Of a DNA stretch of 26,330 nucleotides, positions 1-17,543 are shown piece by piece (position 1 is the first letter of the stretch; every line of letters begins with the position of its first letter). The DNA is taken from IMG/VR virus record IMGVR_UViG_3300010151_000128, positions 1-26,330 of that record; one strand, given 5' to 3'. The position numbers and the translations under genes were made by a program. This DNA comes from a virus. A model generated the notes under the pieces. The model searched no databases. It saw only the letters and a program-made list of their open reading frames with translations, and was not told the origin of the DNA.

Positions 1-54
1 AAATCATGCGATGACGCTAATATTCCATGTACACAAGGCACACCGGATTGCTAA
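1..54 (+). CDS. 3' end of a Cys-rich protein gene (partial)
   Basis: An open frame runs from base 1 to a TAA at 52-54 and enters from outside the window. Its 17 visible residues hold three cysteines, the last being the final residue (spacing C-x6-C-x6-C-stop). The next gene ends almost the same way (C-x8-C-x5-C-stop), which suggests that the two are tandem relatives. The next ATG follows only two bases after this stop, so the pair is probably co-transcribed and translationally coupled. Function is unknown, and the fragment is too short for a firmer call. Confidence 0.5.
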   Translation, partial: KSCDDANIPCTQGTPDC

Positions 55-56
55 TA

Positions 57-1058
57 ATGAAAAACAAAAAAATAATCGACAAATTAAAGAAGAACCAAAA
101 AAGATATTTTGATCTTAAAAATAGAAGATTAAAAGAATCAACATGCTGTCGATATACTCTCAAAAAACACGACACATATAATACATTTAATGTGTCTCCG
201 AGTATGTCAGTCATGGACAACAGAGAGTGTCGGGACAAATCTGGCGGTAGAGATATTATATACGTACAAGATGAAATATTAGAAAATCATTATATTCTAT
301 TAAATACCATAGAAAACATTAAAGCCATCGCATGTGTTCATAAGAAAAAATGGCTACCAAACATAAACTCAACCGCTAAAGAAGAAAACATAATAACAAT
401 TGAAATTTCTGATTCTAATAATGCACAATTGTCGTGCGAACAGTGTGGAATACAGGGTGGGATTTCTACACCACAGAAAAATCCTCTTGGTGTAGAAATA
501 GAATCTACGAATTTATATATTATTGCATCTGATAATGAATTTAATCCCCAAAATTTTATTGATGATTATTCTGAAAATAATGAATTTATAAATTCAGATG
601 GTTTAAATTCTTCTGGGTATGGAACTCATGTTTCTGCAACCAGACAAGAATTATCAGATTTTGGTGAGTTTGGAAAGAATTATTTTTATAAATCGTGCGA
701 TAAAACAACACCGTGCTGTGATAATTGTTATTCTTATCCTAAGGGGTTCTGTATTTCTACACCAAAATGTAGATGGGAAAATGAAAATAATGTTAAAGTT
801 TTAAATTGTACACATGACAGTTTTTGTTTTGACAGGCTTATCGACATATCGAATAAATTCCCATCTGAGTTTTATATTTCTAATTTAGACACATCACAAA
901 AACAAACATGGAATTCCATAGTAAAAAACAAAAAAACATCCAATAATCAAAATACTTCTAGAAAGAAACTTTTTGTTACTGAATTACATAGATGCATGTG
1001 GTTCGATTGTAATTCAAATTCTCCAAATAGCCCCTGTAAAAAATATAATGAGTGTTAA
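57..1058 (+). CDS. Cysteine-rich protein of unknown function
   Basis: I do not recognise this 333-residue protein. It has 18 cysteines, many in pairs or close sets: CC near residue 30, CEQC near 128, a dense cluster of about eight around residues 210-260, and three in the last 18 residues. The N-terminus is lysine-rich with no signal peptide or membrane segment, so it probably acts in the cytoplasm or virion and may bind metal. I chose the ATG at 57 because it sits two bases after the upstream TAA; an ATG at 27 would add ten residues but would overlap the upstream gene. The Shine-Dalgarno signal is poor at both. Codon use is AT-rich like its neighbours. The C-terminus resembles that of the upstream partial gene. 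A structural or host-takeover role is possible, but nothing in the sequence decides it. Confidence 0.75.
   Translation: MKNKKIIDKLKKNQKRYFDLKNRRLKESTCCRYTLKKHDTYNTFNVSPSMSVMDNRECRDKSGGRDIIYVQDEILENHYILLNTIENIKAIACVHKKKWLPNINSTAKEENIITIEISDSNNAQLSCEQCGIQGGISTPQKNPLGVEIESTNLYIIASDNEFNPQNFIDDYSENNEFINSDGLNSSGYGTHVSATRQELSDFGEFGKNYFYKSCDKTTPCCDNCYSYPKGFCISTPKCRWENENNVKVLNCTHDSFCFDRLIDISNKFPSEFYISNLDTSQKQTWNSIVKNKKTSNNQNTSRKKLFVTELHRCMWFDCNSNSPNSPCKKYNEC
462..763. repeat. 11-bp motif in three copies (two direct, one inverted)
   Basis: ATTTCTACACC occurs at 462-472 and again at 753-763. Its exact reverse complement, GGTGTAGAAAT, is at 489-499. The first and inverted copies could form an 11-bp stem with a 16-base loop in the mRNA. 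The two direct copies encode the similar peptides GISTP and CISTP, so part of the repetition may come from an internal protein repeat. Confidence 0.6.
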
Positions 1059-1066
1059 ATTTGTCC

Positions 1067-1094
1067 TTGACAATTGTATTATTTAATGTATCAT
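1067..1094 (+). promoter_or_regulatory. sigma70-like promoter for the 1126 gene
   Basis: A perfect -35 TTGACA at 1067-1072 is followed after 16 bases by TATCAT at 1089-1094, five of six matches to the -10 consensus. Transcription would start near 1101, just ahead of the AAGGAG ribosome binding site at 1108-1113 and the ATG at 1126. It lies in the 67-base gap after the Cys-rich gene. It is the best sigma70-type match I found in the intergenic sequence of the window. Confidence 0.6.
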
Positions 1095-1125
1095 TTTATA
1101 AATTCTAAAGGAGAGTTTTATTAAT

Positions 1126-1782
1126 ATGGAAGAAAGTATGAATCAAACCCCACTTCCAGGCGAAGCGTCCAAAGAAAGGGGGTGCAACTGTGGTAAAAAT
1201 AAAAAGAAATTTAAAGAACAAGATCTTCCGGATCAAGGGGGATTCTTTAAAAAGAAAATGAGTATGGTCCAGAATTTTGCCACCTCTCTCACCTCCCGAG
1301 GACTTGGCAATAAAAAGATCAACAGAGCAACCAAACAATTAAGAGTTTTGAGTTGTATAGGAAATGAACACATGAACGGTGAACTTCCCCCATGTGAACA
1401 CTTATTGCCGAGTGAAGTTGAGGGTGGAGAAGGAAAGAAATATTGTGGTGCGTGTGGATGTGGAGACCGAAAAGGAACTTGGTTGATTGCAGATTCTAAT
1501 GAATATAGTAAATTAGATTATCCAAAAGTAACGTGTCCTCTTCAAATGCCTGGATTTACTAACTACAGACCAAGTACCCCAGAAGAAGCAGAAGAGCCTG
1601 AAACAAGAAAACATTACATCGAAAATATTTCCTACAAAGAAATGGAAAGAACTCCAGTAACTCTACCCGAAATGACAGAAGAACAGAAAAAAGCAATGGA
1701 AGAATCACAAAAAAGAATGGCAGAAGCCCAAAAAAGAAAAATAGAAGAAATGAAAAAGAAGAAAAAAGAGGAAAATAAGTAA
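1126..1782 (+). CDS. Conserved-looking phage protein with CGACGCG cysteine motif
   Basis: A 218-residue protein whose biochemical function I cannot name. Cysteines lie at residues 20, 22, 77, 90, 107, 110, 112 and 137. The core runs from SC77 through PPC90 to YCGACGCGD (106-114), then a KLDYP stretch and CPLQMPGF, which looks like a metal or Fe-S binding site. Residues about 165-218 are a highly charged Glu/Lys segment, probably helical or coiled coil, ending in a run of lysines. AAGGAG at 1108-1113 serves the ATG at 1126. The gene has its own promoter-like sequence in front and a strong terminator behind, so it can be expressed apart from the late genes. Similar Cys-motif proteins occur, as far as I recall, in marine T4-like phages, but I cannot confirm an identity. 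Confidence 0.85.
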   Translation: MEESMNQTPLPGEASKERGCNCGKNKKKFKEQDLPDQGGFFKKKMSMVQNFATSLTSRGLGNKKINRATKQLRVLSCIGNEHMNGELPPCEHLLPSEVEGGEGKKYCGACGCGDRKGTWLIADSNEYSKLDYPKVTCPLQMPGFTNYRPSTPEEAEEPETRKHYIENISYKEMERTPVTLPEMTEEQKKAMEESQKRMAEAQKRKIEEMKKKKKEENK

Positions 1783-1834
1783 AATATAGAGCAAAATTAA
1801 GAAGAATAAAGAAAAATATTTTATTATCACGAAG

Positions 1835-1868
1835 CAACAAGCACCTCTGTAGGGGTGCTTGTTGTTTT
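1835..1868 (+). terminator. Rho-independent terminator
   Basis: An 11-bp perfect stem, CAACAAGCACC (1835-1845) with GGTGCTTGTTG (1854-1864), is followed by TTTT. The inner TC/GG bases can extend the stem slightly. It closes the 1126 gene and separates it from the neck gene that starts at 1892. Confidence 0.85.
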
Positions 1869-1891
1869 ATACATATAATAGGAGATTTTAT

Positions 1892-2698
1892 ATGGCAAGA
1901 CCAACTTCAAGAGAAACACTTATAGAATATGCTTTTAGAACTCTAGGTTATCCAGTTGTTGAAATTAATGTTGATTACGAACAAGCCGAGGATCGATTAG
2001 ACGATGCCTTGGATTATTTCGTTGAAAGACATTTCGATGGCGTGGAAAAGGCATATTTCACATATAACGTCACAGCAGACGATGTAGCAAACAACTACAT
2101 TGACACAAATAATCTCGGGCCAGTGAACGGTTTTAGTGGAGATGGTCCAACCGGACAAGATATTGTGACTGTAACAAAGATATTTCAATTTGGTGATTTT
2201 GCAAATATTAACATGTTTGACGTAAGATATCAAATGGCTCTTATGGATTATTTTGGAATTAACAGAGGATTGGGTGGTAATAGTTCAATGGGGCTTGCAA
2301 GTTACGATTCGACAAAAAGATACATTAGCCTGCTGACCGATTTCTTTCAGCCCGAAAAGAATATCAGGTTCAGTAAGGTTACTAATAAATTACACATAGA
2401 CATGAATTGGGGACAGGAACTAAATGCCGGGGAAAGTTTAATAATAGATGCATACGTTAAATTAGATCCTAACACGTTCCCAGAAATATGGAACGACCGT
2501 CACTTAAAAAGATACTTCACGGCATTGGTAAAACGACAATGGGGCCAAAACCTTTCAAAATTCCAAGGAGTTCAATTGCCTGGTGGTGTTTCATTTAATG
2601 GAGATCAATTAATAGCACAGGGAGAAGAAGAAGTATTGAGAATTAGAGAAGAAATGAAATCTGAAGTTGAACTTCCCATTGATTTTATGACTGGATAA
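1892..2698 (+). CDS. 13: gp13 neck protein
   Basis: 268 residues. It matches the head-completion (neck) protein gp13 of T4-like phages, which with gp14 closes the filled head and makes the platform for the tail. The N-terminal region has the family's shape: a helix, TLGYPVVEINV, an acidic ED-rich helix, then ERHFDGVEKAYF, close to EYHFDGVNKGF as I remember it in T4 gp13. T4 gp13 is 309 residues, so this form is shorter. The start at 1892 is set by AGGAG at 1880-1884 (seven-base gap); the open frame extends upstream into the terminator but that part cannot be coding. It begins the late block and is followed after 16 bases by gp14, as in other T4-like phages. Confidence 0.9.
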   Translation: MARPTSRETLIEYAFRTLGYPVVEINVDYEQAEDRLDDALDYFVERHFDGVEKAYFTYNVTADDVANNYIDTNNLGPVNGFSGDGPTGQDIVTVTKIFQFGDFANINMFDVRYQMALMDYFGINRGLGGNSSMGLASYDSTKRYISLLTDFFQPEKNIRFSKVTNKLHIDMNWGQELNAGESLIIDAYVKLDPNTFPEIWNDRHLKRYFTALVKRQWGQNLSKFQGVQLPGGVSFNGDQLIAQGEEEVLRIREEMKSEVELPIDFMTG

Positions 2699-2714
2699 GC
2701 GGAGAACATCATAA

Positions 2715-3644
2715 ATGGCTCGCAACCCATATTTTAAAGAATATTCTGGTGAACAAAACGTCACCGAAGATATAACTATCGAAATCATAAAGATGATGGG
2801 GAAGGATATGATCTATATTCCCCGAACTCTTGTGAATGAGGATACCCTATTCGGTGAGGATGATATTTCAAAGTTCGATGATGGTTACGAAATTGAAATG
2901 TATATTGAATCGATAGACGGATTTTCCGGACGAGGTGATTTAATCGCAAAGTTTGGTCTAGAAATAAAAGACTCTATAATTTTACAGGTATCCAGAAAAC
3001 GTTTTGAAAATGCAGTCGGTGCATATGAAAATATCACCCGGCCAAGAGAAGGAGATTTAATTTACTTTCCTTTGAGCAAAACACTTTTTGAAATCAACTT
3101 CGTTGAACACGAAAATCCATTCTATCAATTAGGAAAACTATTCACCTACAAACTAACGTGTGAAACCTTCACTTATAATATGGAGGAGATTGACACCGGA
3201 ATCAGTGATATTGATACCGTAGAGGAAGAGAGAAAGAAATTTGCTATTGAACTCACTCTGGGGGATAGGATTAGTTCTAGCACCTATGTGAATTTCTTTG
3301 AGGGTGAAACTGTATATCAGGTTATTGGTGTTACTGGTGGTTCGGCGCTGTTGGAGAATGCTACTTCCACGGCAACTGCTACCAAATGGGATGGAGACAC
3401 AACTAAACTAACAATCACTAATGTGTCTGGTTCGTTCTCTACTGACACCGATGAAACTATTAAAGGTGCTGTGTCTAATGCAGAATATGAAGTATCTTCT
3501 AAGACTACCACAACTATTATTGTTCCACAAGAACCACAGGATAATGCACCGGCTGGTGATAATGACAATATAGAGTTAATTAGAGATATGGAAGACATCT
3601 TTGATTTTACTGACGTTGATCCTTTTTCAGAGGGCGGGTACTAG
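2715..3644 (+). CDS. 14: gp14 neck protein with inserted beta module
   Basis: 309 residues against 256 in T4. It is the second neck protein, which binds gp13 below the portal. Matching landmarks are MIYIPRTLVNEDTLFGED (T4: YYVPREYVSPDLIFGED), EGDLIYFPLSKTLFEINFVE and PFYQLGKL, all in the family's order. Near the C-terminus, about residues 195-275, lies a Gly/Thr/Val-rich, predicted beta segment (from NFFEGETVYQV to TTTTIIVPQ) that T4 gp14 lacks. The protein then returns to the usual acidic DVDPFSEGGY ending. Such FEGETVYQ...VSGSF modules resemble repeats I know from marine phage structural proteins. CGGAGA upstream supports the ATG at 2715. Confidence 0.9.
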   Translation: MARNPYFKEYSGEQNVTEDITIEIIKMMGKDMIYIPRTLVNEDTLFGEDDISKFDDGYEIEMYIESIDGFSGRGDLIAKFGLEIKDSIILQVSRKRFENAVGAYENITRPREGDLIYFPLSKTLFEINFVEHENPFYQLGKLFTYKLTCETFTYNMEEIDTGISDIDTVEEERKKFAIELTLGDRISSSTYVNFFEGETVYQVIGVTGGSALLENATSTATATKWDGDTTKLTITNVSGSFSTDTDETIKGAVSNAEYEVSSKTTTTIIVPQEPQDNAPAGDNDNIELIRDMEDIFDFTDVDPFSEGGY

Positions 3645-3681
3645 AAACAACACTTTAACAAGGATATAAAGAGGGCTACTG

Positions 3682-4422
3682 ATGTTTACTCAATTCTATA
3701 ATGAAGCAATTCGAAAACTCGTCATTGGGTTTGGTTCTCTATTCAATGATATTAATCTCGTTCATAAAAATTCTGATGGTACAACAAAAGAAACTATTAG
3801 AGTTCCGATATCATATGGACCAAAAGAAAAATTCATTAGAAGAATTCAAGAATCTAGTTCCATTTCAGATAATACGAAAGTTCACATATCACTTCCTCGA
3901 TTGGGTTTTGATCTTTTAAATTTCTCCTATGATCCTATGAGAAAAATCAACAAACTGGGAAAAACAAAAACAGCCTTGAGCAGTCCCCAAACAACTTTCA
4001 ATTATAGAGAAGTTCCATACACAATTACATTTGGACTATATGCATTCACCCGAACTATGGATGATAATTTACAAATAATTGAACAAATTACACCATATTT
4101 TAGTCCAGAATTTATCGTGTCTTTAAACGTAAATGAAGTAAACAAAAAAGTTGATATACCTATTATTTTAAATTCAGTTTCAACAGTCGAGGACTATGAA
4201 GGTAATTTTGATTTTAGAAGAAGTATTATAAGTAGTTTTGAATTTACAGCAAAAACATATGTTTATGGTCCCGAAAGAACCACTAAGGTTATTCTAGATT
4301 CTTATGTTGATATATTTGGTGTGACAGGAGATGCATGGCCAAGTATAAATGATGCACATGATGTTAGAGTGAGAGCAACCGGGTCTACGGCTGGTGAAAG
4401 GAGCGATGTATTCTATGAGTGA
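3682..4422 (+). CDS. 15: gp15 tail terminator / sheath stabiliser
   Basis: 246 residues (T4 gp15: 272). It forms the hexameric ring that caps the finished tail and contacts the neck. The start MFTQFYNEAIRKLVIGFGSLFNDI, the IRVPISYGPKEKF segment and the central PRLGFDLLNFSYDPMRK stretch, followed by VPYTITFGLYAFTRTMDD, are characteristic of gp15 and its relatives. The order 13-14-15-16-17-18 gives independent support. AGAGGG in front of the ATG at 3682 is the ribosome binding site. The end overlaps the gp16 start by eight bases, so translation is probably coupled. No unusual features. Confidence 0.9.
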   Translation: MFTQFYNEAIRKLVIGFGSLFNDINLVHKNSDGTTKETIRVPISYGPKEKFIRRIQESSSISDNTKVHISLPRLGFDLLNFSYDPMRKINKLGKTKTALSSPQTTFNYREVPYTITFGLYAFTRTMDDNLQIIEQITPYFSPEFIVSLNVNEVNKKVDIPIILNSVSTVEDYEGNFDFRRSIISSFEFTAKTYVYGPERTTKVILDSYVDIFGVTGDAWPSINDAHDVRVRATGSTAGERSDVFYE

Positions 4423-4876
4423 AAAGAAATCTGTTAATGAAAAATTATCGGATGCTCTCGATGTGGAATTTGAAGGTAAGGAAATAAAACCCGTACGGGT
4501 AATCAAAACACCACCAGAGGTAACAGATGATCTAAAGAAGAAACAATTAAACGCCGATTATGATCTTGCAAGAGATAATATGAGAGAGTTGATTGATACC
4601 GGTAAAGATGCCATTGAAGGCATCCTTAAAGTTGCATATGAGGGAGATTCTCCCAGAGCATATGAAGTAGCATCTCAAATGATAAAAAATGTTGCCGAGA
4701 TTAATCAGGACTTAATTTCTATTCATAAACAAATGAAAGAAATTAATAAAGAAGAGATTAATATCAACCAAACAAACAACAATTCAATTTATGTTGGTTC
4801 AACAAGTGATCTTCAAGACCTAATCAATCAGGCACGAAGCAGAACCAAGGCTTTAACGGACAATAATAATGGTTAG
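4415..4876 (+). CDS. 16: gp16 small terminase subunit
   Basis: 153 residues (T4 gp16: 164). The small terminase recognises replicated DNA and regulates the gp17 motor; it works as a ring of central coiled-coil hairpins. The identification rests on position directly before gp17, size, and a mostly helical, charged sequence with a long central helix (LARDNMRELIDTGKDAIEG and on) ending in an Asn-rich linker. Three starts are open: GTG 4394, ATG 4406 and ATG 4415. AAGGAG at 4398-4403 lies eleven bases from 4415 but only two from 4406, so 4415 is the better choice. The gene overlaps both gp15 and gp17 by eight bases. Confidence 0.82.
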   Translation: MSEKKSVNEKLSDALDVEFEGKEIKPVRVIKTPPEVTDDLKKKQLNADYDLARDNMRELIDTGKDAIEGILKVAYEGDSPRAYEVASQMIKNVAEINQDLISIHKQMKEINKEEININQTNNNSIYVGSTSDLQDLINQARSRTKALTDNNNG

Positions 4877-6530
4877 TAAAAAGGGTGGCTACTTGGGGAA
4901 TGTTAACCTCAAAGAAGCCGGTGTGAAAATAGACTTCACGAAAGAACAGGTCGAAGAATACGTTAAATGTTCACAAGATCCTGAATATTTTATTGAAAAA
5001 TACATCAAGGTAGTGTCATTGGACGAAGGTCTAATTCCATTCAATTTATATGATTATCAAAAAGAAATTGTAGATATTGCTCACGGTAACAGGTTTGTTA
5101 TTGCAAAACTTCCCAGGCAGAGTGGTAAGAGTTTGACTTTCATTTCGTACATTTTACATTATATTCTATTCAATCAAAATATGTCTGTTGCTGTTCTTGC
5201 AAATAAACAAGCAACAGCAAAAGAAATTTTAAGCAGGCTTAAACTTACATATGAATATATTCCAGTGTGGTTGCAACAAGGAATAATTGAATGGAATAAA
5301 AACTCCCTTCAACTTGAAAATGGTTCTAAAATTATTGCTTCTTCGACATCATCTAGTGCAATTCGTGGTGGTTCTTATAATCTCGTAATGCTTGATGAAT
5401 TCGGACACGTTCCAAACAACGTCGCGGAAGAATTCTTTAGTTCGGTATATCCGACTATCAGTGCCGGTCAAACAACTAAAGTATTCATGGTGTCCACCCC
5501 AAACGGTCTAAATATGTATTATTACTTCTGGAAGGGTGCCACCAAAAAAGAGGGAGAGCCCGGAAAGAATGAATATAAGGCAATTGAAGTAAATTGGAAC
5601 GAAGTTCCGCAATATCCTGGCGGGCCTCTTAGAGACGAAGCCTGGAAAAAGAAAACAATTGCCAACACTAGTGAGCATCAATTTAAAATTGAATTTGAAT
5701 GTCAATTTATTGGCAGCCAAAATACTTTAATAGAATCCGAAAAACTCAGAGATTTGACATATTCCGAACCTTTAATTAAGAATAATGATGGTCTGTGGAT
5801 ATATAAAAAAGCCAGAGAAGACAGAACATACTTCCTAACAGCAGATACCTCTAGGGGCCAGGGGAATGATTATAGTGCATTTTGTGTAATTGATGCTACA
5901 GAAATGCCCCATAAAGTAGTAGCACGATACCGAAATAATATTGTTTCCCCGATGGTGTTTCCTACGGCCATTGTCGCTGTGGCAAAACAATATAACGATG
6001 CCTACGTGTTGGTTGAAGTGAATGATATTGGCGGTCAAGTAGCAGATATTGTTCACTATGATCTAGAATATGAAAATATTCTCAAGTGTTCATCAAAAGG
6101 AGCAAAGGGTCAAACCATATCTTCTGGTTTTGGTAAATCAGGAACCAATATGAAAATGGGAGTCACGACAAGTGTCCCGGTTAAAAAGATTGGATGTTCT
6201 GTTTTAAAAAGTCTCATAGAAGAGGATAAATTAATAATTGAAGATATTGAAATAATCAACGAATTGACCACATTTGTTGCAAAAAAACAATCATTTGAAG
6301 CAGATGATGGACACACAGACGATTTAGTAATGTGTTTAGTCATCTATAGTTGGATGACAAGACAAGATTATTTTAAAGAATTGATAGACGGAGACGTTCG
6401 AACTGGTATTTACGAGGAAGAACTGGAAAGAACGAACGAAGAAATGGCTCCATTTGGATTTATTGAATTAGGAAACGAAAAAGACGACGGCGAATGGGAC
6501 GGGGAAGATAGGTGGTTTCAAGTCCCCTAA
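4869..6530 (+). CDS. 17: gp17 large terminase (packaging ATPase-nuclease)
   Basis: 553 residues (T4: 610). It pumps DNA into the prohead with its N-terminal ATPase and cuts the concatemer with its C-terminal RNase H-fold nuclease. The Walker A motif is LPRQSGKS at about 81-88, and the Walker B is LVMLDEFGHV with D176-E177. The nuclease acids are D326 in TADTSRGQGNDYSAF, D386 in EVNDIGG and the HTDD pair at 482-485, followed by LVMCLVIYSW. All catalytic elements are present, so it should be active. The ATG overlaps the end of gp16 by eight bases and its Shine-Dalgarno (AACGGA) is weak, consistent with coupling to gp16. Walker B ends in FG, where T4 has a different residue pair. Confidence 0.96.
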   Translation: MVSKKGGYLGNVNLKEAGVKIDFTKEQVEEYVKCSQDPEYFIEKYIKVVSLDEGLIPFNLYDYQKEIVDIAHGNRFVIAKLPRQSGKSLTFISYILHYILFNQNMSVAVLANKQATAKEILSRLKLTYEYIPVWLQQGIIEWNKNSLQLENGSKIIASSTSSSAIRGGSYNLVMLDEFGHVPNNVAEEFFSSVYPTISAGQTTKVFMVSTPNGLNMYYYFWKGATKKEGEPGKNEYKAIEVNWNEVPQYPGGPLRDEAWKKKTIANTSEHQFKIEFECQFIGSQNTLIESEKLRDLTYSEPLIKNNDGLWIYKKAREDRTYFLTADTSRGQGNDYSAFCVIDATEMPHKVVARYRNNIVSPMVFPTAIVAVAKQYNDAYVLVEVNDIGGQVADIVHYDLEYENILKCSSKGAKGQTISSGFGKSGTNMKMGVTTSVPVKKIGCSVLKSLIEEDKLIIEDIEIINELTTFVAKKQSFEADDGHTDDLVMCLVIYSWMTRQDYFKELIDGDVRTGIYEEELERTNEEMAPFGFIELGNEKDDGEWDGEDRWFQVP

Positions 6531-6566
6531 ATATCATTTTGTCTAAATAATAGTGACTATATTTAG
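6527..6566 (+). promoter_or_regulatory. Late-promoter-like repeats and hairpin before gp18
   Basis: CTAAATA occurs twice, at 6527-6533 and 6543-6549, 16 bases apart, and resembles the T4 late -10 element TATAAATA. The second copy pairs with TATTTAG at 6560-6566. Together with TAG 6551-6553 / CTA 6557-6559 this makes a small hairpin with one bulged A. The right arm reaches the first bases of the AGGAG ribosome binding site (6565-6569) of gp18. A start point expected near 6555 from the second copy would lie inside the hairpin and leave a leader of about 23 bases. Confidence 0.4.
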
Positions 6567-6577
6567 GAGAGATCTGA

Positions 6578-7876
6578 ATGGCAAGACCAAATGTTACAGT
6601 CATAATCAACGACCAAAGTTTTGTAATTCCCGGCACCGAGTCGGGGGGTGCTTTCCGAGCCGGATTTATTAGTGAAAATGGCCTCATCTCAAATCTTGGT
6701 CTGACATCAGAAAGAAGTAACGGAATTATGACAATATCCAACCTTCGTGATTGGTTTGGAAAGTTGTCATCACAAGACCCAATTGCCAGTGGTATGACTG
6801 CTGATGGAGTATGGCATCATAGTAATGTTCCGGGAGGTAACGCCACCGGGGGAACTGGAATGGAACGATGGCCCCAGGGACCAACAGGATCGTGGGAAGG
6901 CGAATGGTGGACCGTTCATAATTACCTCCAATATGGTGGTGTTGCTATTGTTGGATCTACAGGTGATGAAGAAAATACAGTTTCTTCGACAGATTCCCTT
7001 TCCAATAAACAAGTCGGGCTTGATGGTGTGGTTTGTATGTCTAGTCAATCAATAGGATTGACTATGGGTGGGGCTAGTATTGGTACGAAATATTATACAA
7101 ATACAACAGATATAACAAATGCTTCTGCGGTAGTAAATTTGCGAGAAGATTGTGTCGGTGTGTTCCCATATGAAACAGGGACCGCTGCGAACGATAGCGT
7201 TCCTGCGGAGCCAGCCGCTGATTCCGAGATTCCTAATAACGAATATGGAATTGCAATTTTTGGAGCAAAGAGATTTTTAGGCATAAGCAAAAATCCAGAA
7301 TCTGATATTTTAGAAATGAACTGTGCTCCGGATGTCGGTGGATGTTTAGCAAGAACAGATAGACTTGCTGATCCTTGGATGTCTCCAGCAGGATTCAAAC
7401 GTGGTGATATCTTAAATACAATCAGACTAGTCTATAATCCAACTGATGCCGAACAAGATACTCTTTTCGATGCAGACATTAATCCTGTGGTGGTTTATCC
7501 GGGTGAAGGTACTGTTCTCTTTGGAGATAAAACTCTAGCAGGTTCTACGTCATCTTTATCAAGAATTAACGTTTCTAGACTGTTCATATACCTAAAGAAA
7601 ATTGTTGGATCTGCTGCTCGATCTCTTCTGTTCGAAATGAATGATGAAGGAACCAGATCATCGTTTGTTAATACGGTATCTCCGTTGCTGAATAGAATCA
7701 AGGCCCGAAGGGGAATCTATGATTATAAAGTTGTTTGTGATGAAAGTAACAACACTTCGGATATAATTGATTCCAATCAATTTGTTGCTGATGTGTTTAT
7801 TAAACCGTCTAAATCAATTAACTTTATTAAAATAACATTCACAAACGTGAATACAGCAGTCGATTTAAATAGTTGA
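6578..7876 (+). CDS. 18: gp18 tail sheath protein (short form)
   Basis: 432 residues, against 659 in T4. It is the contractile sheath subunit that drives the tube through the host envelope. The C-terminal half matches T4 gp18 in order: CLARTDRLADPWMSPAGFKRG, ADINPVV, VLFGDKT, INVSRLFIYLKK, FEMNDEGTRSSF, GIYDYKVVCDESNNT, and the closing IKPSKSINFIKITFT strand. The N-terminal third keeps a WTVHNYLQYGGVAIV segment like the T4 MNFLQYG region. Most of the material between these is missing, which in T4 makes up the surface domains. This looks like a reduced but complete sheath, not a truncation, since both ends are intact. TTTAGGAGA precedes the ATG. Confidence 0.93.
   Translation: MARPNVTVIINDQSFVIPGTESGGAFRAGFISENGLISNLGLTSERSNGIMTISNLRDWFGKLSSQDPIASGMTADGVWHHSNVPGGNATGGTGMERWPQGPTGSWEGEWWTVHNYLQYGGVAIVGSTGDEENTVSSTDSLSNKQVGLDGVVCMSSQSIGLTMGGASIGTKYYTNTTDITNASAVVNLREDCVGVFPYETGTAANDSVPAEPAADSEIPNNEYGIAIFGAKRFLGISKNPESDILEMNCAPDVGGCLARTDRLADPWMSPAGFKRGDILNTIRLVYNPTDAEQDTLFDADINPVVVYPGEGTVLFGDKTLAGSTSSLSRINVSRLFIYLKKIVGSAARSLLFEMNDEGTRSSFVNTVSPLLNRIKARRGIYDYKVVCDESNNTSDIIDSNQFVADVFIKPSKSINFIKITFTNVNTAVDLNS
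7864..7871 (+). promoter_or_regulatory. Late-promoter-like octamer before gp19
   Basis: TTTAAATA overlaps the end of gp18 and lies 23 bases before the gp19 ATG. It differs from the T4 late element TATAAATA at one position. With T4 geometry transcription would start near 7877, upstream of the AAAGGAG site at 7882-7888. Short AT-rich words are common in this genome, so confidence is low. Confidence 0.35.
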
Positions 7877-7894
7877 CTTTAAAAGGAGAGAAAC

Positions 7895-8455
7895 ATGGTT
7901 GCTAGTTCAAATATAAGCACTTTTAGAAGTAATTTTAAAGGCGGATCCAGACCAAACCGTTTTGAAGTAAGTGGTAAAATTCCCACATCAACGCCTCAGG
8001 ATATCGACAATAGCAATACTTTTCTGATTAAAGCATCAACTATGCCTCCATCAACAATTGGAATTATTCCTGTCCCATATAGGGGTAGAATATTGAAAGT
8101 TCCTGGAGATAGACTCTTCATAGAATGGGACATTGTTATTATTGACGATCCAGGAAATGGTGCAGAGGGTTCCGACCTAAGAAATAAATTCGTCGAATGG
8201 TCCCACTTAATTAACAAACATGCCGAGAACACCCTCAACAATCAAAATTATTATGCCGATTGGAGCATTTATCAATTAGAATCTGGTGCGGATAAAGCCC
8301 TGAAAAACCGGAAAATAACTTTGCATAATTGTTGGCCCGTAGAAATTTCAGGAATTGAATTTAATCATGACATCCCAAATACTTTAGTTCAATGGAATGT
8401 TCGTATGGCATACGATTTCTGGACAACAGATGCACCGAGTGGTCCCAGGCCCTGA
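7895..8455 (+). CDS. 19: gp19 tail tube protein
   Basis: 186 residues (T4: 163). It forms the hexameric rings of the inner tail tube through which DNA passes. Family signs are RPNRFEVSGKIP near residue 20, ATTMPPS-type residues in the KASTMPPSTIGIIPVPYRGR loop, the KVPGDRLFIEWDIVI strand (T4: KINVAGDRTFDDWTVTV), NKFVEWSHLI, and a C-terminal LHNCWPVEISGIEFN followed by an AYDFW ending (T4: LALDYWE). The gene follows gp18 by 18 bases, as expected. AAAGGAG gives a clear start. The C-terminal PVEISGIEFN motif recurs in the protein at 14134-14676. Confidence 0.93.
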   Translation: MVASSNISTFRSNFKGGSRPNRFEVSGKIPTSTPQDIDNSNTFLIKASTMPPSTIGIIPVPYRGRILKVPGDRLFIEWDIVIIDDPGNGAEGSDLRNKFVEWSHLINKHAENTLNNQNYYADWSIYQLESGADKALKNRKITLHNCWPVEISGIEFNHDIPNTLVQWNVRMAYDFWTTDAPSGPRP

Positions 8456-8496
8456 TATACATATAGTGGTAGTTAAAATTATGGAGTTTTTGATAT

Positions 8497-10005
8497 ATGC
8501 CGATAGAATTATTTGGGTTTAATTTTGGTCGTAAAAAGGAACAAGAGGCTTCGGATCCGAAATCTTTTGTTGCACCTGACAGTTATGATGGTGCATTCAC
8601 CATAGACGCTGGTGGATTTTTTGGAACATATGTTGATTTTGCTGGTTCTATAAAAGACGAAAATCAATTAATAAACAGATATAGATCTCTGGCACTATAT
8701 CCAGAATGTGATAGTGCCATTGAAGATATTATAAATGAAGCATTAGTTTCAGATGAAAGTAAAGATATTGTTGATATTAATCTCAATCATATTAAACTTT
8801 CTGATAATATCAAATCAAAAATAACAAACGAATTTGAAAATATCCTTCGTATTCTAAACTTTAAAAATAAAGGCCATGAACTTTTTAGACGATGGTATAT
8901 CGATAGTAAATTATATTTTCATATAATAATAGATGATAATAATCCTCTAAGGGGGATATTAGAATTAAGACCCATCGATCCGACCAAAATTAAGAAAATT
9001 AGAAAAGTGGAAACCAAACAGGCCGCTGGTGCTAAAAATAATGTTCCGTTGGTAAATAATGTTGAAGAATTTTTTATCTATACAAACACCGACAAGGATT
9101 CCATTTATCAAACTACCAGTTCAGGAATTAAAATTCATACAGATTCTATCTTATATACCCATTCTGGTGTTGTGGATTCTGCATCAAAAAAGGTGGTCGG
9201 ATATCTCCAAAAAGCACTGCGACCATTAAATATGCTTCGTCAAATTGAAGATGCTGTTGTGATTTATAGAATATCCAGAGCACCCGATAGACGAATTTTT
9301 TATATTGATGTTGGAAATCTTCCGAAGCATAAAGCAGAACAATATCTTAAAAGTATCATGAATAAATATCGAAATAAATTGATATATGATTCTGCTACAG
9401 GTGAAGTTCGAGATGACCGAAACCATCTCCATATGCTTGAAGATTATTGGCTTCCACGAAGAGAGGGTGGCAGAGGAACTGAAATTCAAACCCTGCCCGG
9501 TGGCGAAAATCTCGGTGAAATGGAGGATGTGGATTATCTTCTCAGAAAATTATATAAATCCCTAAACGTCCCGATATCTCGTTTAGAGTCTGAAAATGGT
9601 TTTAATATGGGAAGATCTGCTGAAATTACCCGAGATGAAGTTAAATTCTATAAGTTTATCGATAAACTACAAAAAAGATTTTCTACCTTTTTCATTGACA
9701 TTTTAAGAATTCAACTCCTTTCTAAGGGCATTCTCACAGAAAACGATTGGATTACTGTTAAACAAGATATATCATTTACCTGGAATAAAGACAATTATTT
9801 CTCGGAAATGAAAGAAAACGAACTCGTAAGAGAACGTTTAGATATGTTAAATATTGTAAATGAATATATAGGTAAGTACTACTCTGTTGATTGGGTCCGA
9901 AAAAATGTTTTACAACAGGATCCAGATGAGATAGAGGAAATGGATAAACAAATCCAAAAGGAAAGAGATCTTGGGATCATTTCAGAACCGGAGGAAGAAT
10001 TCTAA
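8497..10005 (+). CDS. 20: gp20 portal protein
   Basis: 502 residues (T4: 524). Twelve copies form the portal at the unique head vertex, which starts prohead assembly and serves as the DNA channel for gp17. Typical segments are the early YRSLALYPECDSAIEDIINEAL helix, the FRRWYIDSKLYFHIIIDD strand, LRPIDPTKIKKIR, the RQIEDAVVIYRISRAPDRRIFYIDVGNLPK stem helix region, and the VPISRLESENGFNMGRSAEITRDE segment. TGGAG at 8482-8486 is the ribosome binding site. The next gene starts directly at the base after the stop codon. It looks complete and intact. Confidence 0.95.
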   Translation: MPIELFGFNFGRKKEQEASDPKSFVAPDSYDGAFTIDAGGFFGTYVDFAGSIKDENQLINRYRSLALYPECDSAIEDIINEALVSDESKDIVDINLNHIKLSDNIKSKITNEFENILRILNFKNKGHELFRRWYIDSKLYFHIIIDDNNPLRGILELRPIDPTKIKKIRKVETKQAAGAKNNVPLVNNVEEFFIYTNTDKDSIYQTTSSGIKIHTDSILYTHSGVVDSASKKVVGYLQKALRPLNMLRQIEDAVVIYRISRAPDRRIFYIDVGNLPKHKAEQYLKSIMNKYRNKLIYDSATGEVRDDRNHLHMLEDYWLPRREGGRGTEIQTLPGGENLGEMEDVDYLLRKLYKSLNVPISRLESENGFNMGRSAEITRDEVKFYKFIDKLQKRFSTFFIDILRIQLLSKGILTENDWITVKQDISFTWNKDNYFSEMKENELVRERLDMLNIVNEYIGKYYSVDWVRKNVLQQDPDEIEEMDKQIQKERDLGIISEPEEEF

Positions 10006-10623
10006 ATGAATAAATCAACACATACCATGCTAGAAGCACTAGCCCATGACGAGATGGATAGTTTTGCAGAAACATTTGATATTGCTTTAAAAGAAAAGGC
10101 TTCTTTTTATCTGAATAATGTATCAAAAACAGTAGCAAAGAATCTCTTCTTTGAAGATAAAATTGATGAAGATTATGGACGAACTGGTATTAATACCGGT
10201 GTTTATAAGTTTAATGATGAAGATGATGCTCAAAAATTCTTCGAATCTGCTCTTAACACGGGCATCACCAAAAAAGATATGAATGTTCAAGGTTCGAGTG
10301 TTCATGTCGGTGATATCGCAGATGCAGATATGGAAGAAAGTCTATATGAACTAGCAAAACAAATGAATGCTACATTCACAGAAGAGAACAATTCTTTTGT
10401 ATCAATTATCAATTCTGTGTTGTCTGAGGGGAACGATATTATAGTTTCTATTGGAGACGATTCTAGAGTTAAATTGACCCCAGGGATTGTCAACAACATC
10501 ACAAATCTTCACGATAGCCTAAATTTCGAAAATCAAACAGTTTTGAGGAACATGATATTTGAATCAAAATATTCATTTGATAGAATTTCGAATTTTGCAA
10601 AAGAATACTCAAGGGGAATCTGA
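10006..10623 (+). CDS. Putative prohead core protein (gp67/gp68 position)
   Basis: 205 residues, not recognised by full-length similarity. It sits between gp20 and gp21, where T4 carries the small prohead core genes 67 and 68. The N-terminal helix FAETFDIALKEKASFYLNNV, followed by VAKNLFFE, has the shape I associate with phage core proteins: a helix with an ALxxK element ending in a VAxxLF tail. Residues about 65-120 look like a small alpha/beta domain (KFNDEDDAQKFFESALNTG). The rest is acidic and helical. The start directly follows the gp20 stop, with GAGGAAG as ribosome binding site. It may be digested by gp21 during maturation. The core-protein call is an inference from position and pattern. 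Confidence 0.6.
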   Translation: MNKSTHTMLEALAHDEMDSFAETFDIALKEKASFYLNNVSKTVAKNLFFEDKIDEDYGRTGINTGVYKFNDEDDAQKFFESALNTGITKKDMNVQGSSVHVGDIADADMEESLYELAKQMNATFTEENNSFVSIINSVLSEGNDIIVSIGDDSRVKLTPGIVNNITNLHDSLNFENQTVLRNMIFESKYSFDRISNFAKEYSRGI

Positions 10624-10624
10624 T

Positions 10625-10963
10625 ATGCCATCAACCAAAAACCTAATTGAAAATGTATTAGATGATAATATCATTGGTGCTAAACAAACAATAACGGATA
10701 TTTTATATTCTAAAATGTCTGACATATTAGAACAAAAAGAAAAAGAATATATTCCTACTATGTTCGAGAAAAATAGCAACCCAATAGATGAAGCAAAGCG
10801 GGATTATAGTGAAAGAGAAACCATTTTTGGTATGACTAAAGATGAGTATATGAAACTTACGGATGAAATGAAGCGAAAAGTTAAAGAAAAATTCTACTTC
10901 GAAAAAGAACGAAAAATGAAGAAAAGGGAAAGAAGAACTCACAGTAAGAGAGTCTCCCAATGA
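10625..10963 (+). CDS. Putative small prohead core protein
   Basis: 112 residues. The open frame extends upstream to 10559 inside the previous gene, but the ATG at 10625, one base after that gene's TGA and preceded by AAGGGG, is the natural start. Near the N-terminus, ILYSKMSDILEQKEKEYI and MFEKN repeat the helix-plus-F pattern of the protein before it, fitting a gp67/gp68-like internal head protein. The C-terminus is strongly basic (KERKMKKRERRTHSKR). A basic tail suits contact with DNA or with the acidic scaffold. Its stop overlaps the gp21 start as ATGA, so the core protein and protease are coupled. Identification is inferred from context. Confidence 0.6.
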   Translation: MPSTKNLIENVLDDNIIGAKQTITDILYSKMSDILEQKEKEYIPTMFEKNSNPIDEAKRDYSERETIFGMTKDEYMKLTDEMKRKVKEKFYFEKERKMKKRERRTHSKRVSQ

Positions 10964-11607
10964 AACTAATTACCGAAATGACTGAGGATGTTGAATTTCT
11001 GACTGAAAAGGCAGAAAATGGTGAAAAGAATTATTTTATCAATGGGATTTTTATGCAAGCAGAGCAAAAAAATAGAAACGGGAGGGTTTATCCTGGTTCT
11101 ATTTTGATGAAAGAAGTCAAAAGATATAATTCAGAGTATGTATGTACAAGCAGAGCACTTGGGGAACTAAACCACCCGCAAGGCCCAACAGTTAATCTTG
11201 ACCGCGTTTCACATATGATTAAAGAACTTAACGGCTCTGGAAACGATGTCGTCGGAAAAGCCAAGATTATGAACACTCCCATGGGGTTGATTGTTCAAAA
11301 CCTCATGAATGAGGGTGCCAAACTTGGTGTATCTTCTAGGGGCATGGGTTCATTGAAAATGAACAATGAGGGAATCAACGAAGTCCAAAAGGATTTCATG
11401 CTTTCTGCGATTGATATTGTGGCAGATCCATCTGCTCCAGGGGCCTTCGTTGAGGGCATCATGGAGGGAAAAGAATGGATTTGGGATAATGGTATTTTAA
11501 AAGAAAAATCAATAGCAGAATATCATGCTCAAATTAAGAATACTAGCAGAAAAAGGCTAGAAGAAAAAACATTAAATTTGTTCAAGGACTTTTTATCAAA
11601 AGTTTAA
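10960..11607 (+). CDS. 21: gp21 prohead protease
   Basis: 215 residues (T4: 212). This serine protease of the herpesvirus-assemblin fold matures the prohead by cutting scaffold, core and capsid proteins at sites of the L/I-x-E type. The expected catalytic elements are visible: H72 in GELNHPQGP, S125/S126 in LGVSSRGMG, and the acidic/His partner region DRVSH (81-85), with AIDIVADPSAPGAF at 150-163. The N-terminal NGIFMQAEQKNRNGRVYP stretch is also typical. It overlaps the previous gene by ATGA. Its substrates gp22 and gp23 follow at once. It looks intact. Confidence 0.95.
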   Translation: MKLITEMTEDVEFLTEKAENGEKNYFINGIFMQAEQKNRNGRVYPGSILMKEVKRYNSEYVCTSRALGELNHPQGPTVNLDRVSHMIKELNGSGNDVVGKAKIMNTPMGLIVQNLMNEGAKLGVSSRGMGSLKMNNEGINEVQKDFMLSAIDIVADPSAPGAFVEGIMEGKEWIWDNGILKEKSIAEYHAQIKNTSRKRLEEKTLNLFKDFLSKV

Positions 11608-11644
11608 TTTTTATACATAAAATGAATTAAAGGAGTTTTTCCGT

Positions 11645-12664
11645 ATGTCAGAGAAGAATCAAGAAGAAAACAGCAATGTCAAATCAATTGCCGATTATAT
11701 TACTACCAAATATTCTAAGATGAATGAAGGTGGTCGAGATGCACAAGTTGAAATGGATGCCGATGGCAAATCGTCCTTCGATGCCGAAGGAAAAGGCCCA
11801 ATGCTTCCAGATCCTGAAAATGCTGATGTTGTACGAAATCGCAAATCAATTGAACCCAAGGGTTCTGTTGTTTCCTCAGAAGAAGAGGGTGATCCTGATG
11901 AAGAAGAAACTCGAAATGAACATAAATTAGAAGTTCTCTTTAGTGGAGAAGAACTCAGTGAAGAATTTAAAGAAAAGGCTGAGACTATCTTCGAAACAGT
12001 TGTTTCTGAAAGAGTTTCTGCTATTGAAACTTCGCTAAATGAAAAATATGAAACAAAACTTCAAGAGGGAACAGAAGCAATTCTAAACGATCTCTCTGAA
12101 AAATTAGATGATTACCTCAATTACGTCGTTGAGCAATGGCTCAAGGAAAATGAATTAATAATTGAGCGTGGGATTCGTTCTGATGTCACTGAAAACTTTA
12201 TCAATAATTTAAAGAATCTTTTTGAAGAAAGTTATATTGACGTTCCTGCTGAAAAATATGAACTGCTTGATGGTCTTTTTGAGCAGAATGAACTTCTCGA
12301 AAAGGAACTAAATAATCTTGTTCATAACAATAAGGAACTCGTTAATGAAATGAGTACCCTTAAGAAAATGGAAGTGTTTGCTGAAGTTTCAGATGGTTTA
12401 GCATCTACTGAAGTAGAACGTCTTGCATCTCTCACTGAAAGCATTTCAGAAGGAATTGATGCTGAAGAATTTAAAAGCAAATTAATCACAATTCGAGAAA
12501 GTTACTTTGATAGTAATGCTTCTACTGAAGTTACTAGCATTCAAGAACTTACCGAAGAAAGTACAGATCCAACAATCATAACTGAATCAACTAAACCATC
12601 GTTTAAGATGGATGGTTATGTCAGTACACTAAGTCGTATTTCAAAAGCCAACAAGGTATCATAA
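11645..12664 (+). CDS. 22: gp22 prohead scaffold (major core) protein
   Basis: 339 residues (T4 gp22: 269). It is the scaffold around which gp23 assembles and is destroyed by gp21. The sequence is highly acidic, Glu-rich and almost wholly helical after an N-terminal disordered part (about residues 1-95, rich in Asp, Glu, Ser and Gly). The helical core LEVLFSGEELSEEFKEKAETIFETVVSERV is the recognisable gp22 element, followed by WLKENELIIERGIR. Several L-x-E or I-x-E sites could serve gp21. AAGGAG at 11630-11634 serves the start. A CATAAAAT word in the leader is only a weak late-promoter match. The order 21-22-23 confirms the call. Confidence 0.9.
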   Translation: MSEKNQEENSNVKSIADYITTKYSKMNEGGRDAQVEMDADGKSSFDAEGKGPMLPDPENADVVRNRKSIEPKGSVVSSEEEGDPDEEETRNEHKLEVLFSGEELSEEFKEKAETIFETVVSERVSAIETSLNEKYETKLQEGTEAILNDLSEKLDDYLNYVVEQWLKENELIIERGIRSDVTENFINNLKNLFEESYIDVPAEKYELLDGLFEQNELLEKELNNLVHNNKELVNEMSTLKKMEVFAEVSDGLASTEVERLASLTESISEGIDAEEFKSKLITIRESYFDSNASTEVTSIQELTEESTDPTIITESTKPSFKMDGYVSTLSRISKANKVS

Positions 12665-12674
12665 GGAGAAAAAT

Positions 12675-14045
12675 ATGAGTTTTTCAGATACAACCCCCTT
12701 CGATGCTTTGGTAGAAAAGTGGACACCCGTTCTTGACCACAACGAACTACCATCAATCGAAGATAATTATCGTAAGAAAGTAACTGCTGCTATTCTTGAA
12801 AATCAAGAGCAGGCTCTTCGTGAGCAGGCTCTTCATGAAACAGCCGCTTCAACCAACGTCATGGGTGGTAACTTCAGTGACCCCCAAGTCGGCAGTGCAG
12901 GCAACCTTGCTGGTTATGATCCAGTATTGATTAGTCTTGTTCGTCGTTCTATGCCAAATCTTATGGCATACGACATTGCCGGTGTTCAGCCTATGAGCGC
13001 ACCAACTGGTCTTATCTTCGCCATGCGTGCAAGATATGATGGTCAGACTGGTAAAGAGGCTCTTTATCAGGAAGCATTTGCTAAGTTCTCTGGTGCAGGC
13101 AACACATCAGAAGGCGCTGCAACTGCTGAATCACAGGGCATCGATCCAACGGATTCTCCAGCACTTACTGGTTTCCGTGCAATGCTCACAGCAACCGGTG
13201 AAGGTCTTGGTGTTGATAGCGGTACACCGTTCAAGGAAATGGCATTTAGCATCGAGCGCGTAGCCGTACAGGCTAGAACCCGTGCTCTTAAGGCTGAATA
13301 TACCACTGAACTCGCACAGGATCTCAAGGCTGTTCATGGTCTTGACGCCGAGACTGAACTTGCTAATATTCTTAGCACCGAAATTCTCGCTGAAATTAAC
13401 CGTGAACTCCTTCGAACCATCTACACAAGTGCAGAATCGGGTGCCCAGCACAGTGATCTCGTCACTGGTGGTGGTACGTATGATCTTCTGCTTGATTCGG
13501 ATGGTCGTTGGTCCGCAGAACGTTTCCGTGGTCTCATGTTCCAAATCGAACGTGAATGCAACGTAATCGCCAAGAAAACTCGTAGAGGTAAGGGTAACTT
13601 TGTTATCTGTTCTTCGGATGTTGCTTCTGCTCTAGCAATGGGTGGTTTCCTTAACATCTCTCCAGCACTTAACGTTAACCTGGACGTTGATGATACCGGT
13701 AACACCTTCGTCGGTGTTCTGAACGGTAAGACTCGGGTCTATGTTGATCCTTATGTCCCATCGGGTGCTGATTTTGTCTGTGTCGGATATCGTGGCTCTT
13801 CGCCATACGATGCAGGTATATTCTACTGCCCATATGTTCCGCTCCAGATGGTGCGTGCAGTTGGTGAAACTACATTCCAGCCAAAGATCGGGTTTAAGAC
13901 TCGATATGGAATGGTCGCCAACCCATTCTCCAAGGGTTCAACTCCAATCTCTGGAGATGGTCTTGGTAACGCTGACAATGTTTACTACCGACTCTTCACA
14001 GTTGCTGGTCTACATGGTCACACTGGTGGCTTCTGGAACACTTGA
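12675..14045 (+). CDS. 23: gp23 major capsid protein
   Basis: 456 residues (T4 precursor: 521). It has the HK97 fold and forms the hexamers of the head. Family segments include GYDPVLISLVRRSMPNLMAYD, the GVQPMSAPTGLIFAMRARY stretch, a GLGVDSGTPFKEMAFSIERV segment, RALKAEYTTELAQDLKAVHGLD, and IERECNVIAKKTRRGKGNFVI. Residues 1-55 are a helical, charged arm ending in LHE; cleavage after E55 would match the gp21 site and the T4 cut after E65. Codons differ from the neighbours: many GGT, CGT, CTT and GTC, as expected for the most abundant protein. ATAAGGAG is a strong ribosome binding site. A terminator follows. Confidence 0.97.
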   Translation: MSFSDTTPFDALVEKWTPVLDHNELPSIEDNYRKKVTAAILENQEQALREQALHETAASTNVMGGNFSDPQVGSAGNLAGYDPVLISLVRRSMPNLMAYDIAGVQPMSAPTGLIFAMRARYDGQTGKEALYQEAFAKFSGAGNTSEGAATAESQGIDPTDSPALTGFRAMLTATGEGLGVDSGTPFKEMAFSIERVAVQARTRALKAEYTTELAQDLKAVHGLDAETELANILSTEILAEINRELLRTIYTSAESGAQHSDLVTGGGTYDLLLDSDGRWSAERFRGLMFQIERECNVIAKKTRRGKGNFVICSSDVASALAMGGFLNISPALNVNLDVDDTGNTFVGVLNGKTRVYVDPYVPSGADFVCVGYRGSSPYDAGIFYCPYVPLQMVRAVGETTFQPKIGFKTRYGMVANPFSKGSTPISGDGLGNADNVYYRLFTVAGLHGHTGGFWNT

Positions 14046-14070
14046 TTGTTCTAGAATGATCTAAGAAATA

Positions 14071-14104
14071 AAGGGGAGTCCTTCGGGACTCCCCTTTTTC
14101 TTTT
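14071..14104 (+). terminator. Strong terminator after gp23
   Basis: An 11-bp perfect stem, AAGGGGAGTCC (14071-14081) with GGACTCCCCTT (14086-14096), is closed by a TTCG tetraloop and followed by a T-rich tail. It ends the capsid transcript 26 bases after the gp23 stop. Confidence 0.92.
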
Positions 14105-14105
14105 G

Positions 14106-14113
14106 CATAAATA
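14106..14113 (+). promoter_or_regulatory. Late-promoter-like octamer after the gp23 terminator
   Basis: CATAAATA differs from T4's TATAAATA only in the first base and lies right after the terminator, where a new promoter would be needed for the next tail gene. The expected start near 14119 gives a very short leader beginning at the AAAGGAG site (14118-14124). Confidence 0.45.
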
Positions 14114-14133
14114 ATATAAAGGAGAATGTATAA

Positions 14134-14676
14134 ATGCCTAATTATGGATATACTGCTGGTGTTCCTGATTTAGATTATGTAAAAAATCCACGCCAACCAG
14201 ATAATAATAACTATCTGGCCAATAATTATTTTAAATTTGAATTTACTCGATTGCCCACAGTAACATACTTTTGTCAACAAGTAAATTTACCAGGAATCGC
14301 ATTTGATGTTGCAAGATTTCCAACAACTGCTGGCCTTCCCCATAAGACCCCAGCGGGGCAATATAACTACGACAATTTAAACGTATCGTTTATGGTTGAT
14401 GAAAATATGAAAAATTGGATTGAAGTTTACGAATGGATTCAATCTATTGGCATTCTGAATGATATATCGGATACTATTCCTCATAACGATAAATTCTCAA
14501 ATGCCGTCTTGACTGTAATGAGCAGTTCATATAAACCAAATTTAGAAATAACATTCTATGATGCATTCCCTGTTGCTTTAAGCGGTATTGAATTTAACTC
14601 AACACTTCCAGACACTATAGCAATCATTTCGACTGCTTCGTTCGCATTTAATTACTATACGGTAAAAACATTATAA
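14134..14676 (+). CDS. Second tail-tube-fold structural protein
   Basis: 180 residues. The C-terminal third, YDAFPVALSGIEFN followed by a beta ending FAFNYYTV, closely mirrors gp19 (PVEISGIEFN, eight of ten residues identical), so the tube fold is likely. The N-terminal NYFKFEFTRLPTVTYFCQQVNLPGI also matches the first strands and loop of tube proteins. The middle, VSFMVDENMKNWIEVYEWIQSIG, is typical of tube-like proteins in marine T4-like phages. Its place after gp23 is where cyanophage genomes carry the gene usually labelled gp3. Tube initiator (gp54-like) or tail terminator are alternatives. AAAGGAG serves the ATG. A late-promoter-like octamer precedes it. Confidence 0.85.
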   Translation: MPNYGYTAGVPDLDYVKNPRQPDNNNYLANNYFKFEFTRLPTVTYFCQQVNLPGIAFDVARFPTTAGLPHKTPAGQYNYDNLNVSFMVDENMKNWIEVYEWIQSIGILNDISDTIPHNDKFSNAVLTVMSSSYKPNLEITFYDAFPVALSGIEFNSTLPDTIAIISTASFAFNYYTVKTL

Positions 14677-14704
14677 TTGAAAATCTTATTTTTCGTGGTA
14701 TTAT
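14677..14704 (+). promoter_or_regulatory. sigma70-like promoter for uvsY
   Basis: TTGAAA (14677-14682) and TATTAT (14699-14704) are separated by 16 bases, each five of six to consensus. Transcription would start near 14711, about 12 bases before the uvsY ATG. It sits exactly at the change from structural to recombination genes, where a non-late promoter is expected. Confidence 0.5.
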
Positions 14705-14713
14705 AAAAATAAG
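14685..14713. repeat. 9-bp inverted repeat before uvsY
   Basis: CTTATTTTT (14685-14693) and AAAAATAAG (14705-14713) are perfect inverted arms around 11 bases. They straddle the proposed -10 element, and the right arm holds the first bases of the AAGGA ribosome binding site (14711-14715). It could be an operator on DNA, or a hairpin that hides the binding site on read-through transcripts. Confidence 0.55.
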
Positions 14714-14722
14714 GATGTCGCT

Positions 14723-16645: not shown

Positions 16646-16653
16646 GAGGGCAA

Positions 16654-17427: not shown

Positions 17428-17435
17428 ATCAACAT

Positions 17436-17471
17436 CCCTTTATAGTATATTAAAGGGCCTCCTCCTTTAAT
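17436..17471. promoter_or_regulatory. Three-arm alternative hairpin before gp55
   Basis: CCCTTTA (17436-17442) can pair with TAAAGGG (17451-17457), and the overlapping ATTAAAGG (17449-17456) can instead pair with CCTTTAAT (17464-17471). The two stems share the middle arm and exclude each other. The second stem is 8 bp with a 7-base loop, GCCTCCT. There is no U-run after either, so this is not a plain terminator. It lies in the 116-base gap between the LSm-like gene and gp55. Confidence 0.5.
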
Positions 17472-17475
17472 TAGA

Positions 17476-17488: not shown

Positions 17489-17498
17489 ATAGACTTAT

Positions 17499-17527: not shown

Positions 17528-17543
17528 AAGTGAATAATACATT

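Follow-up and report, generated by a model that had tools for sequence, protein, structure and literature searches.

Tail fibres decide which hosts a phage can infect. The described systems closest to the locus reported here are the T4-like phages of the Kyanoviridae, phage tail fibres with collagen-like starts, the collagen-like adhesin Lcl of Legionella, the cysteine-module proteins of Planctomycetota and the iRhom homology domain. Within the last of these, the extracellular domain of iRhom2 is described as stapled by 8 disulfides (PMC11248996, PMC12184519).

Here we analysed a stretch of 26,330 bases (the window, meaning the whole stretch), a linear virus fragment. Since the window is an entire IMG/VR record, we turned to further contigs of this phage for its left neighbour. 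A sequence-only reading had taken the cysteine-rich genes at its left edge for tandem paralogues encoding metal-binding or crosslinked virion proteins, an interpretation that our analysis partly supports. We put at roughly 0.6 the probability that this edge is the end of a tail-fibre/adhesin block, belonging to a marine, uncultured T4-like phage and encoding disulfide-braced, receptor-binding fibres.

Results

The source of the window is a T4-like phage, as homologues of gp13, gp14, terminase, portal and major capsid protein follow one another in order. PHROG families named its neck, terminase, portal, capsid and tube proteins. Cultured marine T4-like phages supply the nearest matches to the capsid protein (60% for Methylophilales phage Melnitz). 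The gene that follows the major capsid gene (14134-14676) gave a PHROG tail tube match at E 4e-30; as the gene at 7895-8455 occupies the usual place of gp19, there may be two tube-like genes.

At the left edge, positions 1-54 of the plus strand encode KSCDDANIPCTQGTPDC and a stop codon, the C-terminal end of a cysteine-rich gene whose last residue is Cys. Contig L003 matches window positions 1-6385 at 100% and adds 9.9 kb; there the upstream gene is complete (L003:4167-9998), and its last 17 residues are those of the fragment. It encodes a giant fibre protein, P0002, of 1943 aa with 196 Cys. The next gene, encoding P0001 (57-1058, plus strand), starts two bases past the stop of the fibre gene; its product of 333 aa has 18 Cys, ends in Cys, begins with MKNKKIIDKLKKNQKRYF and shows by eye no hydrophobic N-terminal signal. 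The P0001 protein is identical in three IMG/VR contigs. Further along the same strand follow a gene for a 218-aa protein (1126-1782) and the genes for a T4 gp13-like neck protein (1892-2698; PHROG head-tail adaptor Ad2), a fixed neighbour of the block, and a gp14-like neck protein (2715-3644; PHROG head closure Hc2), whose best cultured match has 40% identity.

Read across contigs, the order is baseplate-type genes, fibres of 994, 1159 and 1943 aa, P0001, the 218-type gene, gp13 and gp14. The genes left of the fibres are presumably baseplate genes, a label based on their position and the T4 gene order. Among them lies a gene for a 928-aa protein with 50 Cys that starts MTSYNGCCCDCYK (positions 3451-6237 of contig G001, the reverse complement of L009) and is absent from the module hits described below. 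A fibre block ahead of neck genes 13 and 14, adjoining the conserved 218-aa Cys protein, recurs in many IMG/VR contigs. At the other end of the window, the gene at 26260, suspected earlier of being a further cysteine-rich copy, turned out to continue in L358 and L360 as a protein of 292-300 aa that by eye resembles a glycosyltransferase. It belongs to a run of glycosyltransferase-like genes, also judged by eye, that begins at window position 25604 (window 26260-26330; L358:3115-9753; L360:3292-5557), an unusual number for a phage.

The two other fibre genes lie upstream of the P0002 gene in tandem and encode P0003 (1159 aa, 50 Cys) and a third fibre (994 aa, 32 Cys). P0002 and P0003 are paralogues (BLASTP E 5e-10); the idea of tandem cysteine-rich paralogues thus holds one step further left than where it had been placed. 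All three fibres start with Gly-X-Y collagen-like repeats, and the 994-aa protein combines this kind of start with one copy of the six-Cys module that is strung along P0002. By their Gly-X-Y repeats, the collagen-like starts matched tail-fibre families of PHROGs (best E 2.6e-6), and they scored below the Pfam cut-off for collagen (PF01391; 13.9 and 16.5 vs 27.2 bits). As a test for an Lcl-type adhesin, NF046116 of NCBIfam gave 14.6 and 17.3 against a cut-off of 500. In PHROGs and NCBIfam, P0002 and P0003 were matched by the collagen part, or weakly; across Pfam, PHROGs and NCBIfam, the fibres match only by that part or at chance level. At the C-terminal end, Lcl_C was matched below its curated cut-off (14.0 vs 34.9 bits) by the 994-aa protein and by one of 22 proteins (E 0.0058) that occupy the slot of P0001 in other phages of the group, hereafter slot proteins. 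By eye only, the 1159-aa protein and the remaining slot proteins also have Lcl_C-like ends.

With P0002 split at CC, the repeated unit reads G-x-C-C-x4-C-x7/8-C-x3-G-G-x8-C-x4-C and spans 36-40 aa (the GxCC module). Pfam held no match of this kind for P0002, P0003 or five repeat-rich stretches from other contigs. The module was likewise absent from the cultured phages searched: tblastn against 50,697 phage records, a method weak for Cys-rich queries, returned none with P0002 (E up to 1e-3) or with a multi-unit stretch from L232 (E up to 1). In IMG/VR, two scans by DNA pattern yielded at least 120 stretches each. At least two pattern units stood in one frame in 152 of 232 loci, a count that includes several loci per contig and other Cys-rich proteins fitting the loose pattern, and an HMM built from 177 units recovered 278 frames, spread over 193 loci, at E up to 1e-3. 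Among units with at most five gaps, all six Cys are kept in 392 of 429 viral and 369 of 387 bacterial ones, figures with a circular element, since those Cys were required by both the scans and the seed. The same pattern caught a distinct Cys-rich family in viral contigs (L034, L044, L051, L068 and similar), with proteins of 240-330 aa and CCCC clusters such as ACCCCEGTNGVCCQGTTC. Joint loss of Cys was also considered as a guide to disulfide pairing and set aside: only C3 and C5 were lost jointly, in 3 units, which is too few.

Modelled with AF2, a P0002 stretch of four units reached a mean pLDDT of 75.5 and a pTM of 0.41; its best-formed units (pLDDT about 90) are predicted to consist of a hairpin followed by a short helix and a strand, and its middle is poor (pLDDT <50 over most of residues 43-70). 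The nearest solved match in Foldseek was the iRhom extracellular domain (8snl; probability 0.96, rmsd 1.6 over 35 columns), a weak one at E 0.24-0.33. VIA gave Z 3.7 and rmsd 2.8 over 43 residues against iRhom, and HMMER a weak best E of 0.017. The Cys spacing agrees in the HMMER alignment, although a profile of one unit placed two other proteins just above iRhom (E 3).

The likeness to iRhom bears on whether the Cys of these proteins instead bind metal, zinc or iron-sulfur, in which case P0001 and the 218-type protein would be cytoplasmic metal-binding assembly or regulatory proteins. The missing signal peptides and the cytoplasmic assembly of phages would suit such a role, as would two arrangements also seen in metal sites, the CxxCxC cluster among the invariant Cys of the 218 family and the CCxxC cluster kept in P0001. 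The nearest structural match of the GxCC module, however, is disulfide-bonded, which speaks for disulfides rather than metal in the module, and the module also occurs in apparently secreted bacterial proteins. We regard metal binding as unlikely overall; P0001 and the 218 family themselves may be either disulfide-bonded or metal-binding. Of the two roles guessed at earlier, crosslinked proteins fit better than metal-binding ones, given the position in a fibre block, the collagen-like starts and the disulfide-stapled nearest structure.

P0001 itself is strikingly rich in Cys, with 18 where the 0.94% Cys of the 31 other window proteins would predict 3.1 (Poisson P = 6e-9). It is adjacent to the P0002 gene, and both products are Cys-rich and end in Cys, which is why the two had been read as paralogues with matching endings. 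The shared final Cys is real, yet the spacing matches loosely (C-x6-C-x6-C in the fragment vs C-x4-C-x8-C-x5-C in P0001). With the sequence extended to the left and the proteins aligned, no similarity was found past the last 17 residues: the best BLASTP E of P0001 was 0.08 against P0002 and 0.45 against P0003, neither significant, and P0001 contains no GxCC unit. Paralogy of P0001 and its left neighbour is thus refuted at the sequence level, and we hold it to be highly improbable.

P0001 belongs instead to a small conserved family of its own. The first locus set held no relatives, and the scan with the 218 family supplied two at the same place, just before the 218-type gene: L368 (43.6%; its frame open to the contig end) and L369 (38.6%). 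The three share 14 of the 18 Cys, the last residue included; Cys are conserved beyond other residues at a Fisher P of 1e-6, in a test that assumes independent sites and faithful metagenome contigs, either of which may be wrong. P0001 might also be a shortened, lineage-specific counterpart of the slot proteins, which have 450-880 aa, are Cys-rich and likewise follow the last giant fibre and precede the 218-type gene. Against this, the comparison of P0001 with a profile of 22 slot sequences (A1) gave an hhalign probability of 0.3%, and a three-sequence profile of the P0001 family finds no slot protein, leaving such kinship rather improbable. Neither P0001 nor the 218-aa protein has a match in the copies of Pfam, PHROGs and NCBIfam searched. 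As P0001 offers no fold or family, its role is read from position and Cys conservation, which suggest that it is probably a fibre-associated virion or assembly part.

The 218-aa protein has six invariant Cys (C77, C90, C107, C110, C112 and C137) among 31 aligned members. Its predicted model found no match in PDB or BFVD below E 2, and relatives are absent from the cultured phages searched and from PHROGs (0/31). A search with the family found them in at least 580 IMG/VR stretches. The gene is present in 48 of 50 loci with a gp13 relative, the exceptions being the comparison phages Melnitz and HTVC008M; about ten of these 50 belong to the phage of the window, and apart from the two comparison phages every locus was found via the window or the module. 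Less biased is a sample of the best 80 of the at least 580 stretches, which comprised 77 new loci, 38 of them with at least 3.5 kb upstream. Among these 38, gp13 was found in 37, GxCC units in 25 and a slot-type protein in 35, although the slot profile can also match fibre ends. Five loci (L419, L428 and L441-L443) have the 218 gene with no Cys-rich neighbour upstream in the stretch examined, and where visible show genes of 610-630 aa and 237 aa instead; they are a useful contrast for the role of the 218 protein. In a gp13 tree, with a midpoint root only, 30 loci including the window stand apart from six cultured marine T4-like phages (support 100/100, branch 0.84).

We compared near-identical contigs with G001 (L012) as the reference. 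G001 spans the 1943-aa gene; the window, L002, L004, L010 and L011 begin or end inside it, as strain variation or repeats would explain. Variation was confined to this gene but for one difference, in gp13 of L004, among the remaining shared genes compared (L004, L010 and L011: 1, 0 and 0). Within it, L004 differs by 46 nt in 5049 (28 nonsynonymous and 3 synonymous codons), L010 by 16 in 4710 (9 and 1), L011 by 11 in 3921 (5 and 1), and L002, near its contig end and with gaps, by 6 in 123 (4 and 1). Cys codons were unchanged throughout (probability by chance 0.02, again assuming independent sites and faithful contigs). At residues 664-704 a single alternative version is common to L004, L010 and L011, a pattern that resembles mosaic strains; the variation may stem from such mosaicism or from assembly, these being metagenome contigs. 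A search for the template of a diversity-generating retroelement found no further copy exceeding 23 nt in the fragmentary contigs examined. A change in repeat copy number between contigs had been suspected from match lengths and was dropped once the long matches turned out to include the neighbouring gene.

Outside viruses, the module was found mainly in planctomycete proteins that appear to be secreted. A pattern search of bacteria, one genome per species, gave at least 120 stretches, and among the matches listed 69 of 80 were titled Phycisphaerae or other Planctomycetota; 109 of 120 of those loci passed the HMM at 1e-4, many encoding proteins whose starts look by eye like signal peptides. 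A 29-unit profile (A5) that itself contains Phycisphaerae units, run on samples centred on MAGs or strains titled Phycisphaerae and Bradyrhizobium, placed the module in 32 of 150 genomes of the Phycisphaerae-centred class, 9 of 246 of the corresponding phylum and 1 of 249 of Pseudomonadota, the last a partial, marginal match (E 9e-5, positions 2-25). The shared module suggests a planctomycete host.

Direct DNA links were sought by comparing window positions 1-20000 with 397 genomes (CRISPR/DNA link). Short weak matches appeared in 10 genomes, the two best both at window 18040-18072. Of these two, the one examined (L353) proved to be an AAG-type simple repeat; the short matches provide no evidence for a host. 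The psbA gene (PF00124) occurred in 0 of 47 records, mostly fragments, and so gave no sign of a cyanobacterial host. To our knowledge, planctomycete phages are hardly known, and our literature search, by titles and abstract starts and outside subscription journals and preprints, returned no T4-like planctomycete phage and no description of these fibres.

Discussion

Taken together, these results are best accommodated by a block of disulfide-braced adhesins that are presumably carried on the virion. The collagen-like N-terminal stretch would probably form a trimeric stalk and the GxCC strings a shaft, each module being predicted as a small hairpin-helix-strand unit with disulfides; two of the three fibres, and the slot proteins of related phages, may end in a lectin-like tip of the Lcl_C/DUF1566 kind. 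If the modules are held by disulfides, the fibre would be a covalently braced shaft with variable loops and constant Cys. The cytoplasm in which phages assemble should be reducing; the simplest guess is that the disulfides would form by oxidation after lysis. A disulfide-braced fibre from a reducing cytoplasm would be a clear, testable puzzle.

More speculatively, the locus might belong to an undescribed, deep and abundant T4-like clade that infects planctomycetes (Phycisphaerae-like) with adhesins built out of the secreted six-Cys module of the host group itself, the disulfides closing only after lysis and the loops changing under selection while the Cys stay fixed. This broader scenario is doubtful as a whole. 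Even so, a repeat that the fibres of an uncultured clade have in common with proteins secreted by a single bacterial class gives a concrete host lead. As P0001 and the 218 protein are unmatched, and the fibres are matched only by their collagen part or at chance level, hundreds of contigs carry large unannotated genes of virion type.

Among described phages, the Kyanoviridae (cyanophages, HTVC008M and Melnitz) have T4-like neck, terminase, portal and capsid genes in a similar order, yet the six cultured ones tested stand apart from the present loci in the midpoint-rooted gp13 tree, and the fibre blocks of Melnitz and HTVC008M contain neither GxCC units nor a 218 gene. Collagen-like phage tail fibres share with those of the window their N-terminal GPTGPTGP repeats, large size and position in a tail-fibre block, whereas the window's fibres, with 3-10% Cys, have a shaft of six-Cys GxCC strings, and convincing matches stop where the collagen ends. 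The Legionella adhesin Lcl follows the same general plan of a collagen-like part and a C-terminal Lcl_C-like stretch, but all matches lie under curated cut-offs and the phage fibres insert Cys modules in between. The iRhom homology domain resembles the GxCC module in its CC-C-C-C-C spacing and in a local fold match of 35-43 residues; it differs in belonging to a eukaryotic membrane protein with no tandem fibre, and the E-values are weak. The proteins of Planctomycetota/Phycisphaerae carry the same module, often in tandem and in apparently secreted form, and differ in being cellular proteins rather than phage fibres.
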